From assembly GCF_029937855.1 (NCBI RefSeq), contig NZ_JAPYPC010000016.1, positions 1 to 64,000 on the forward strand: a stretch of 64,000 nucleotides of DNA, read 5' to 3'. Positions 21,087 to 28,128 of the stretch are shown here, one piece after another (the first letter of the stretch is position 1; each line of letters begins with the position of its first letter). The stretch is from Christiangramia sp. (GTDB lineage Bacteria; Bacteroidota; Bacteroidia; Flavobacteriales; Flavobacteriaceae). The position numbers and the translations under genes are program-made. Under the pieces are notes generated by a model. That model searched no databases. It saw only the letters and a list, made by a program, of their open reading frames with translations, and was not told the origin of the DNA.

Positions 21087-21644
21087 TTAGGAATTTGAAA
21101 GCTCCAGGCCAAATGCCTGTTTGAAAAGTAAAAAAGTCTCTTTTGCCTTATTGCTGGCCGCCGTGATTTCCTGTTCTGAGAACTCACAGGATCGCAGATA
21201 TTTTAGGTAGCTATTCCACCCTTGCATGCTACTCCTTTCGCCTGTGAAGAAAAGCTGGTTTGGAATAGAATTAAGTGAACCGCAACTTTTGAGCTCCTTT
21301 CCTATAAGCATCCCTCCCATTGCTGAGCCTTCAATAACATATGCCGCACCAATGGCTTCCGCTTTATTTTGACAATGAAAATCCAGGGTGGAATTGATAT
21401 CTAAAAGGCCTAATCCCTTCAAATCCTGTTCAAGTTGATAAGTCTTACTGGCTTTATATTCCGGAATAAACTTTTCAACCTCAGCTTCAGCAGCCTTATA
21501 GGCCATATAATTTTGAAAAAGAAGAAGTTTATATTCTGTAAGGCTAATAGAATGATCTACTACTTTATTGGCGATATTGTCTTTTTCAATATCGCTGTGC
21601 AGTTGTTTGGTTGCTTCCCGTAATCTATTCAATATCTCTGCCAT
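21087..21644 (-). CDS. bphO: biliverdin-producing heme oxygenase (BphO)
   Basis: The product is 185 residues, all-helical. LREATKQLHSDIEKD contains the proximal haem-ligand His16, and YVIEGSAMGGMLIGKEL (about residues 101-117) is the distal glycine-rich helix of heme oxygenases. The enzyme opens haem to biliverdin IX-alpha, CO and Fe2+. Its start lies 20 bp inside the response-regulator gene, which follows the bacteriophytochrome gene, so the same transcript encodes the photoreceptor and the enzyme that makes its chromophore. This is the classic bphP-bphO pairing. No haem-uptake genes are nearby, which argues against an iron-scavenging role. Confidence 0.9.
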   Translation of the reverse strand: MAEILNRLREATKQLHSDIEKDNIANKVVDHSISLTEYKLLLFQNYMAYKAAEAEVEKFIPEYKASKTYQLEQDLKGLGLLDINSTLDFHCQNKAEAIGAAYVIEGSAMGGMLIGKELKSCGSLNSIPNQLFFTGERSSMQGWNSYLKYLRSCEFSEQEITAASNKAKETFLLFKQAFGLELSNS

Positions 21645-22188
21645 CTTCCAGGTTAAAACGTTCTATAGACTCCTTAATTTGATTTATATTGGCCCGTTGC
21701 TCAACATTATCTGAATTCATTTTATCCAGATAACTATATATTTGATTCACAGTAATTTTATTAGTCCTGATCCTCTCACGCAGTTCATCCCTGGACACCA
21801 TATTTATTACCACTTTTTTGAGGAGTGGCTCTAATTTCTCACCCAGATTATTTATATGTTTTTTTAGAATATATCCCGAAGCCCCATTAAGAATAGTGTT
21901 AGCAGCAAGCTCTTCATCCTGGATGGTTCCAGTAATAAATATAAATTCGATATTCGGGTCAAAATCTTTTACCATATCCAAAATATCGAGACCGGTACAT
22001 TTAGGTAAGTTATAATCTGAAAGTACCACATCTGGCGCAAAATTCACCAGCTGGTCTTTACAGCCCTCCAGGTTATCGGTCACTTCAATAACAGGATGGG
22101 AGATTATCTTATTAACCTGCCTTTTTATTAGAAAGACATCATTTTGATTATCCTCTACTAATAAGATGTTTAGTTTCCTGTTAATCAT
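21625..22188 (-). CDS. response regulator, receiver domain with C-terminal tail
   Basis: The product is 187 residues from Met 22188 (MINRKLNILLVEDNQND). The frame could extend upstream to 22299, but that would overlap the phytochrome gene and add a non-homologous hydrophobic leader. The receiver domain has the acidic pair in VEDNQND, phosphoacceptor Asp58 in VVLSDYNLP, a Thr in FITGT and a Lys in YILKKH. After about residue 125 there is only a helical tail and no DNA-binding domain. It is the likely phosphorelay partner of the bacteriophytochrome encoded 59 bp upstream. Similar small regulators (Rcp1 type) receive phosphate from phytochromes in cyanobacteria. Confidence 0.88.
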   Translation of the reverse strand: MINRKLNILLVEDNQNDVFLIKRQVNKIISHPVIEVTDNLEGCKDQLVNFAPDVVLSDYNLPKCTGLDILDMVKDFDPNIEFIFITGTIQDEELAANTILNGASGYILKKHINNLGEKLEPLLKKVVINMVSRDELRERIRTNKITVNQIYSYLDKMNSDNVEQRANINQIKESIERFNLEDGRDIE

Positions 22189-27400: not shown

Positions 27401-28128
27401 TACTTATATTCCCTAAAATCAAGCCCTACCTCATCGTTAATATAATTAAGGATTTTATTGAGTTCATTTTCATCATACTGGACATCGCCATCCTTAAAAT
27501 GAAATATTGGCGGACTAGAGATAAAATCCTGTAATTCTGACCCCATTTTATCTGCGGGTAAAATATAATCTACAAGGCCTGTGTTAATGGCACTTTTAGG
27601 CATTCCATCGAACTTGGCCTCACCTGGATCCTGCACCATGACCATCCCATCATTTTCTTTTATAGCCCTGGCCCCTCTTGTACCATCACTACCTGTACCG
27701 CTTAATACCACACCAATCGCCCTTTCCTTAAGCTGTTTTGCCAGAGATTCAAAAAAGATATCTATAGGAAGGTTGAGAGTATGATTCTTAGGTTTATCGG
27801 TTAACCGAAGAATTTCATCTTCGAGGATAAGGTTATTTGCCGGCGGAATGAGATACACGTGACCAGGCTTCACCTCCATTTGATCTTTTATTTGCACAAT
27901 AGGGAGACTGGTGCTTTTCTGAAGTAGTTCACCCATCATACTTTTATGATCTGGAGATAAATGCTGAATTATTACATACGCACTTTTATCACCAGCAGGA
28001 ATATTTTTAAAGAACGTTTTTAACGCTTCAAGTCCTCCAGCGCTAGCTCCAACGGCAATAATTCTCGGTAATTCAATATTCTTCTCCCTTACAGATTCTA
28101 CTGTAGAATTCTCTTTAACACTTTTCAT
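24469..28128 (-). CDS. CheB-CheR-PAS-histidine kinase fusion protein
   Basis: The product is 1219 residues. CheB-type methylesterase domain: [11 protein letters not shown] with Ser29, IIQHLSPDH with His56, and [11 protein letters not shown] with Asp near 148. CheR-type methyltransferase domain at about 215-490: [17 protein letters not shown] binds SAM, and [10 protein letters not shown] is also present. Residues about 690-740 form a coiled coil of heptad-like EELQ/NEEL repeats, then at least two PAS domains, and a HisKA/HATPase core with [11 protein letters not shown] (His1011), [17 protein letters not shown] and GTGVGLAHV. It is the first gene of the phytochrome operon. The fusion is known in soil and aquatic bacteria; what it methylates is unknown, as no chemoreceptor gene is in view. 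Confidence 0.92.
   Translation of the reverse strand: [1219 protein letters not shown]

Follow-up and report, generated by a model that had tools for sequence, protein, structure and literature searches.

A bacteriophytochrome and a CheB-CheR-kinase fusion with a conserved glutamate-rich coil share an operon in chemoreceptor-free Bacteroidota

Introduction

Why a bacterium without chemoreceptors should carry a methylesterase and a methyltransferase of the chemotaxis type beside a light sensor is the question raised by a four-gene operon of Christiangramia sp. (Flavobacteriaceae; RefSeq assembly GCF_029937855.1, contig NZ_JAPYPC010000016.1), which occupies positions 21,087 to 28,128 of the 64,000 nucleotides analysed here (positions 1 to 64,000 of the contig, forward strand; hereafter the window). 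The operon encodes a CheB-CheR-PAS-coil-PAS-PAS-kinase fusion, a bacteriophytochrome histidine kinase, an output-less receiver and a heme oxygenase. In teaching, methylation by CheR and CheB is the classic example of a bacterial molecular memory and is treated as a feature of chemoreceptor arrays. An earlier note on this DNA had proposed that red light is here coupled to protein methylation on a target other than a chemoreceptor, perhaps the long heptad-repeat region of the fusion itself. The first half of this proposal is supported by the comparative analysis described below, since the light sensor and the CheB-CheR kinase are paired in an organism free of methyl-accepting chemotaxis proteins (MCPs) and the pairing recurs with a phytochrome that has no kinase; the methylation itself is a prediction from sequence. 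The explanation put forward is a single light pathway in which the coil of the fusion would be methylated by the fusion's own CheR and CheB for adaptation, and the probability of this explanation as a whole is estimated at about one half. That phytochrome and fusion serve one pathway is highly probable, that the coil is the methyl acceptor in cis appears slightly favoured, and adaptation of the light response as the purpose of its methylation is proposed tentatively.

Results

Organization of the operon

The features of the operon are as follows.

24469..28128, minus strand: CheB-CheR-PAS-coil-PAS_10-PAS_9-HisKA-HATPase fusion, 1219 residues (open reading frame, Pfam, motif positions)
27532..28059, minus strand: CheB methylesterase domain, residues 24-199, with GASAGG at 27-32, QHL at 55-57 and GTGSDG at 144-149 (Pfam, motifs)
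26695..27465, minus strand: CheR_N and CheR methyltransferase, residues 222-478, with FFRD at 290-293, STGEEAYS at 326-333 and CRNLLIYF at 426-433 (Pfam, motifs)
26200..26502, minus strand: probable divergent PAS domain, residues ~543-643 (order of strands and helices in the AlphaFold2 model, by eye; 0 Pfam families)
25885..26154, minus strand: single predicted helix of 90 residues, 659-748 (AlphaFold2; predicted local distance difference test, pLDDT, low, ~36-57 by block over most of it)
25939..26076, minus strand: core of the EE-heptad coil, residues 685-730, proposed methyl-accepting helix (sequence conservation, coil profile)
25579..25902, minus strand: PAS_10, residues 743-850 (Pfam)
25192..25488, minus strand: PAS_9, residues 881-979 (Pfam)
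24475..25125, minus strand: HisKA and HATPase_c, residues 1002-1218, H-box SHDLQEP at 1010-1016 (Pfam, motif)
22248..24461, minus strand: bacteriophytochrome histidine kinase, 737 residues, with Cys16, PASDIP at 195, PRKSF at 462 and H-box SHDLKAP at 529 (Pfam, motifs)
21625..22188, minus strand: single-domain response regulator, 187 residues from the ATG at 22188 (Response_reg, Pfam)
21087..21644, minus strand: heme oxygenase, 185 residues, overlapping the receiver gene by 20 bp (Heme_oxygenase, Pfam)

The open reading frames, Pfam matches and motifs bear out what the earlier note had read from the letters, namely a minus-strand operon of these four genes with gaps of 7 and 59 bp followed by the overlap, and a phytochrome with Cys16. 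The fusion is the first gene of the operon. It matches CheB, CheR_N, CheR, PAS_10, PAS_9, HisKA and HATPase_c above the Pfam cut-offs and has no Pfam match to MCPsignal, and the catalytic motifs of both CheB and CheR are intact in the one chain; its AlphaFold2 model (mean pLDDT 70.6) was used as a source for secondary structure only. The phytochrome matches PAS_2, GAF, PHY, HisKA and HATPase_c above cut-off, in the domain order of BphP, carries the N-terminal biliverdin-type Cys together with the PASDIP and PRxSF motifs, and gives full-length matches to solved bacteriophytochromes such as 8uph; with the NCBIfam equivalog model for BphP it scores 335.9 bits, which is below the model's own cut-off of 1040 bits. 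In the receiver no output domain was found above the Pfam cut-off, and its C-terminal tail of ~70 residues is likewise free of domain matches above cut-off; the best match of this protein is LvrB (8vc9), and a weak one is the phytochrome response regulator RcpA (1k68). The heme oxygenase is expected to make the biliverdin chromophore. On the same strand, 26 bp downstream of the heme oxygenase gene, lies a gamma-glutamyltransferase gene (19306-21060), which was not counted into the operon because it is missing from that position in five Christiangramia/Gramella loci (L031, L035, L036, L043 and L048).

Conservation of the four genes and absence of chemoreceptors

Most named relatives of the fusion belong to Christiangramia/Gramella. 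Relatives were surveyed in 19 named loci of Christiangramia, Salinimicrobium, Gillisia and Mesonia (L031-L048, L052) and in a relatives set of 99 genomes, own included, where a CheR match in an open frame of more than 800 residues was taken as a CheR-fusion frame. Fusion, phytochrome, receiver and heme oxygenase follow one another in that order on one strand in 18 of the 19 loci, the contig of the nineteenth (L046) ending inside the fusion, and outside Christiangramia the flanking genes vary while the quartet stays together. All 24 places with a PHY domain in the window's family in the relatives set have a CheR-fusion frame ~3.7 kb away on the same strand of the contig. These places come from 22 of the 24 genomes of the window's genus and from G030 and G054; the two genomes of the genus that have no such place are 73% and 67% complete. 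Such recurrence across the set and the named loci rejects a local curiosity of one genome.

The absence of chemoreceptors and of CheA, noted earlier for the window, holds for the whole genome (G000), in which a profile search found one CheR and one PHY, and no match to MCPsignal or to the CheW domain, also borne by CheA; there is therefore no ordinary CheA or CheW. The 34 CheR-fusion frames of the relatives set are spread over 31 of its 99 genomes, and MCP is absent in 30 of these 31 (own included), G078 being the sole exception. G078, a genome of the window's order, contains a true and rare chemotaxis cluster (L101, G078:C1:618500-627500) composed of a 507-residue MCP frame, two short CheW-domain genes, a 755-residue CheW-bearing frame of the size of CheA, CheR in a 455-residue frame and a gene with CheB motifs, and bears a 973-residue CheR-fusion frame elsewhere. 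Stand-alone CheR, in frames of 276-289 residues, was also observed in genomes with no MCP over the cut-off (G063:C1:1582952-1583503, in L104; G076; G087).

Kinase-less phytochromes beside fusions in a second family

A phylum sample of 148 Bacteroidota genomes yielded one further genome with PHY and CheR side by side, G130, the operon of which consists, in this order, of a heme oxygenase, a 497-residue phytochrome that ends after PHY and has no kinase, and a 1513-residue CheB-CheR-PAS-kinase. In 244 genomes of the family of G130, 41 PHY places were found, 17 in frames of 498-566 residues and 24 in frames of 733-899 residues. A CheBR-kinase lies within ~1.5 kb downstream on the same strand for 15 of the 17 short-frame phytochromes, compared with 0 of the 24 long-frame ones (Fisher p 2e-9, a value that overstates independence because the rows are related); CheR matches for this survey were listed down to ~E 3.5e-38, and the weakest fusion-sized frame listed had 3.3e-44. 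The short phytochromes, all 17 of which were read, end after PHY, and the ten long ones fetched (of 24) all match a kinase at the C-terminus; at none of these ten loci was a CheBR match labelled. Among the 15 linked operons, heme oxygenase is encoded directly upstream in 11 and a lone receiver directly downstream in 10, six of which were scanned with Pfam and matched Response_reg only (6/6). MCP was found in 0 of the 18 genomes of this family searched (the 15 linked ones, G348, G460 and G307).

In G348 the neighbour of the phytochrome is a kinase of 795 residues. This protein matches the fusion in the first PAS region and at the PAS-kinase end and is devoid of CheB, CheR, coil and PAS_10 as one block, yet still sits beside the phytochrome. 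In G460 (L147, 620-3875) the phytochrome module runs into a PAS-kinase that is 48.7% identical over ~390 residues to residues 1120-1509 of the G130 fusion, and in G307 (L139, 1167-4012) into a kinase 42% identical to residues 1253-1507 of the same protein. Both phytochromes nest among the kinase-less ones in the tree, and both kinases fall into one 22-row set (support 99) of the kinase tree with 13 of the 15 second-clade fusion kinases.

Whether the linkage arose once or twice was approached with quick trees that contain related rows. The fusion tree, of 48 rows in all, places the 9 rows of the window's clade on one branch and the 11 rows of the second clade on another, each with a support of 100 in the SH-like approximate likelihood ratio test (SH-aLRT); unlinked fusions of Aquimarina, Mucilaginibacter and others stand between them, and two changes of the linkage label suffice. 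A phytochrome tree of 27 rows gives a fully supported split of the two linked groups, with 8 of the 17 long phytochromes and L126 left out by the motif filter. Two separate linkage events are thus favoured by the fusion tree, and the phytochrome tree does not decide.

Conservation and distribution of the coil

The core of the coil is built on the repeat unit N-E-E-L-Q-S-T and forms part of the 90-residue helix that was modelled with low confidence. In eight fusions of four genera the core is 96-100% identical to that of the window; in the same proteins the beginning of this helix reaches 56-80%, the helix preceding HisKA 64-92%, CheR 63-87% and the kinase 74-93%, which makes the core the best conserved of the parts measured. 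Three distant fusions are 57-87% identical to the window over the core versus 43-55% over CheB, and in the second clade (15 sequences) the mean pairwise identity of the coil is 0.93 versus 0.49-0.66 for CheB, CheR, PAS_10 and kinase. Synonymous divergence is equal inside and outside the coil, and it is therefore selection that keeps the coil protein; this protein-level selection is strong. Gene conversion, which could hold heptad DNA repeats alike, is ruled out because the synonymous codons of the coil are as diverged as those elsewhere. The information content of residues 686-720, taken over 27 diverse fusions with a mean identity of 33%, is 2.93 bits per column versus 2.40 for CheB and 2.46 for CheR, and the two Glu columns, with 3.04 and 3.25 bits, exceed the d positions, with 2.62 bits in a heptad register that we assigned ourselves.

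A coil profile built from nine family members matches all 34 CheR-fusion frames in the 99 genomes at 38 bits or more, and five places outside CheR frames at 37.3 bits or less, by which the strong form of the alternative that the coil is a generic feature of any PAS-kinase is ruled out. As judged by eye, the length of the coil changes by whole heptads across phyla, and the coil is kept with differing output ends. In the second family, the fusions of L118 (G410) and L131 (G339) have a kinase end of another type than the other 13 and retain CheB, CheR and coil, so that the kinase end seems exchangeable while CheB-CheR-coil is kept. Among plasmid-borne relatives, the protein of L062 (Methylocystis iwaonis plasmid, 3139-6105) is missing the start of CheB, with no GASAGG, and keeps CheR and coil, and that of L063 (Shewanella sp. 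LC6 plasmid pSX1_LC6, 2974-7524), a CheB-CheR-coil protein near insertion sequence (IS) elements, is annotated with an EAL domain, an output of the cyclic di-GMP type.

In classical MCPs the methylation-site consensus has small residues at four flanking positions. In the coil, Glu pairs recur at intervals of seven residues and small residues directly precede the following Asn-Glu-Glu, a layout resembling that of MCP methylation helices except at one flanking position, and the spacing of Glu pairs in the MCP of G078 is similar (by eye). A degenerate CheR/CheB scaffold is not favoured, the catalytic motifs being kept: a strict CheR/CheB motif pattern failed on 6 of 53 and on 2 of 15 sequences, in every case through a minor substitution such as GEEAYT, GQEAYS, GVSSGEE, CRNLFIY or GASAGS.

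Discussion

In the mechanism proposed here, the phytochrome would bind biliverdin from the heme oxygenase via Cys16 and switch from a red to a far-red state and back. Both its own kinase and the CheB-CheR-PAS-kinase would act on the shared output-less receiver, the two kinases would be coupled, and the PAS domains and long coil of the fusion would pass the signal to its kinase. CheR would methylate, and CheB demethylate, the repeated surface Glu pairs of the coil, in cis or across the dimer, and methylation of the coil would reset the kinase output after sustained light or other PAS input, as happens to CheA when MCPs are methylated. The predicted steps comprise binding of the chromophore, phosphotransfer to the receiver, coupling of the kinases, coil methylation and adaptation, each catalytic one being predicted from the family membership of the respective protein.

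A number of observations weigh against this explanation. With regard to the coil, the most conserved column in the 27 fusions is not a Glu of the pairs, it is the a-position Asn with 3.99 bits, and over residues 673-740 the coil (2.50 bits) is no better conserved than CheR (2.46 bits); dimerisation or docking could therefore explain the conservation. Some of the nine proteins behind the coil profile sit in the genomes searched with it. The coil fits three of the four flanking positions of the MCP consensus, the fourth being Q, L or E (by eye), and a search of the coil profile against the PDB returned generic coiled coils only and no MCP, so that homology to a solved MCP was not found. Finally, the fusion of L067 (Caballeronia zhejiangensis plasmid p3, 2911-5913) combines intact enzyme motifs with a degenerate coil. 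The earlier suggestion that the coil is the methyl target gains support from near-invariant surface Glu pairs, from a coil in every CheR-fusion frame searched and from the joint loss of CheB, CheR and coil in one relative, and is weakened by the deviating flank, the PDB result and the decayed coil.

Other unfavourable points concern the linkage. In the window's lineage the phytochrome retains its own kinase. The phylum sample contains four PHY places that belong to the window's family but to another genus, g62 (two in G118, one each in G122 and G181); these are not beside CheR, and neither are five PHY places of family f5 in the relatives set. In the second family, the block loss in G348 is a single case, and the kinase-less phytochrome of G345 has no kinase beside it. 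Five other phytochromes with their own kinase, plus one separate kinase, share the 22-row kinase group of G460 and G307; because of these five, and because the other PAS-kinases of the genomes were outside the comparison, the likeness of the G460 and G307 kinases to those of the fusions gives only moderate support for phytochrome and fusion acting together. When the filtered phytochromes are restored (41 rows), both linked groups and one long row emerge from an open fork (support 85) with the others outside, and it is therefore possible that one old pairing was followed by several losses.

Among the alternatives, the one that survives best, although unlikely, is a two-input two-component system with no methyl feedback, in which both kinases would converge on the receiver, CheB and CheR would act elsewhere or serve as sensory modules for S-adenosylmethionine or other signals, and the coil would be a signalling or dimerisation helix. 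HisKA and HATPase are complete in both kinases, both lineages have a lone receiver alongside, PAS domains are commonly joined by long signalling helices, and the leading conservation of the a-position Asn is what a parallel dimer leads one to expect. A plain helix, however, would not be expected to conserve its Glu pairs better than the residues at its d positions, to far exceed the other helices of the same protein in conservation, or to score high only together with CheR.

Co-location for the sake of co-expression only, with the CheB-CheR-kinase answering an unrelated PAS signal and the phytochrome having its own output, is considered improbable. Fusions with no adjoining phytochrome do exist (e.g. 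L050 and L053), and phytochrome, receiver and heme oxygenase stand on one strand with no fusion in 5 of the 18 phytochrome loci fetched (L113, L134, L135, L141, L144), but linkage is found in two fusion clades, in one of which the phytochromes that adjoin the fusion in 15 of 17 cases have no kinase of their own. Least probable of all is an action of the fusion's CheR and CheB on another protein, for example a gliding or secretion component that escaped recognition as an MCP. Motifs that stay intact where no MCP exists make some substrate likely, but phytochrome, receiver and heme oxygenase were the only constant partners noticed in the fetched operons (unlabelled neighbours were not individually identified), and in the frames searched the coil goes with CheR irrespective of the type of output.

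The grouping of phytochrome, receiver and heme oxygenase is already known, and CheB-CheR fusions are widespread. Systems of the BphP-BphR-BphO type share with the window a PAS-GAF-PHY-HisKA-HATPase protein with an N-terminal Cys, a lone receiver and a heme oxygenase; they differ in that the window operon starts with a CheB-CheR-PAS-kinase and that the phytochrome of the second family is devoid of a kinase. Other CheB-CheR-PAS-kinase fusions, annotated as 'chemotaxis protein CheB' or 'CheR family methyltransferase', have the same order of CheB, CheR, PAS region, EE coil, PAS_10 and variable output, whereas the fusion of the window is linked to a phytochrome in genomes that contain no chemoreceptors. 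A CheR/CheB fusion is reportedly the subject of a paper on Azospirillum. On plasmids of rhizobia, cyanobacteria and others, CheB-CheR fusions are represented by 250 records that match at 1e-60, including 25 in which the match covers >80% of the query, and no plasmid phytochrome beside CheBR was seen among the matches listed (40 of 123 phytochrome and 60 of 250 CheBR records). In four proteobacterial loci (L057, L060, L061, L070) the CheBR gene is followed by an overlapping gene annotated as response regulator, as in the phytochrome operons.

With MCPs adapted by CheR and CheB, the window shares the conserved catalytic motifs of both enzymes and a helix in which Glu pairs recur every seven residues next to small residues; unlike there, MCPsignal, CheA and CheW are absent, the proposed acceptor, the enzymes and the kinase are one polypeptide, and the flanks do not follow the MCP consensus strictly. 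Ppr of Rhodocista (Rhodospirillum) centenaria is a bilin-type photoreceptor kinase tied to chemotaxis proteins, the kinase domain of which binds CheW and may form a complex with CheAY in an organism with a chemotaxis pathway (PMC2993699), whereas the window genome has neither CheW nor MCP. FrzF is a case of CheR fused to other domains outside flagellar taxis, but the partner described for it is TPR rather than CheB and a kinase in one chain, and it methylates a separate receptor, FrzCD (PMC3447774). A bacteriophytochrome has been reported in Owenweeksia (PMC3570807). No title or beginning of an abstract dealing with a phytochrome/CheB-CheR-kinase operon or with coil methylation in such fusions was found in the literature searched, closed journals and preprints lying outside the search. 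To our knowledge, three findings are new: fusion and phytochrome are coupled in two families, phytochromes devoid of a kinase lie beside the fusion, and the coil shows the pattern of conservation described above.

Should the coil be the acceptor, the same methylation memory would work inside one soluble kinase, in cells that have no chemoreceptors. The operons make this question testable with few purified proteins, and L067 is a useful negative case for the methylation idea. The kinase-less phytochromes provide an example from nature in which a phytochrome would signal to a kinase in trans. Because the pairing recurs with a light sensor that lacks a kinase, the sensing of light may feed into a memory of the chemotaxis type with no chemoreceptor involved. 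The broadest version of this idea, which we hold still more tentatively than the role of coil methylation in adaptation, is an MCP-free, methylation-adapted light pathway based on a kinase with its own CheR, CheB and acceptor coil, which in one family would serve a kinase-less phytochrome; CheR/CheB adaptation would then have left the receptor arrays for a soluble sensor kinase and, perhaps more than once, become coupled to red light.

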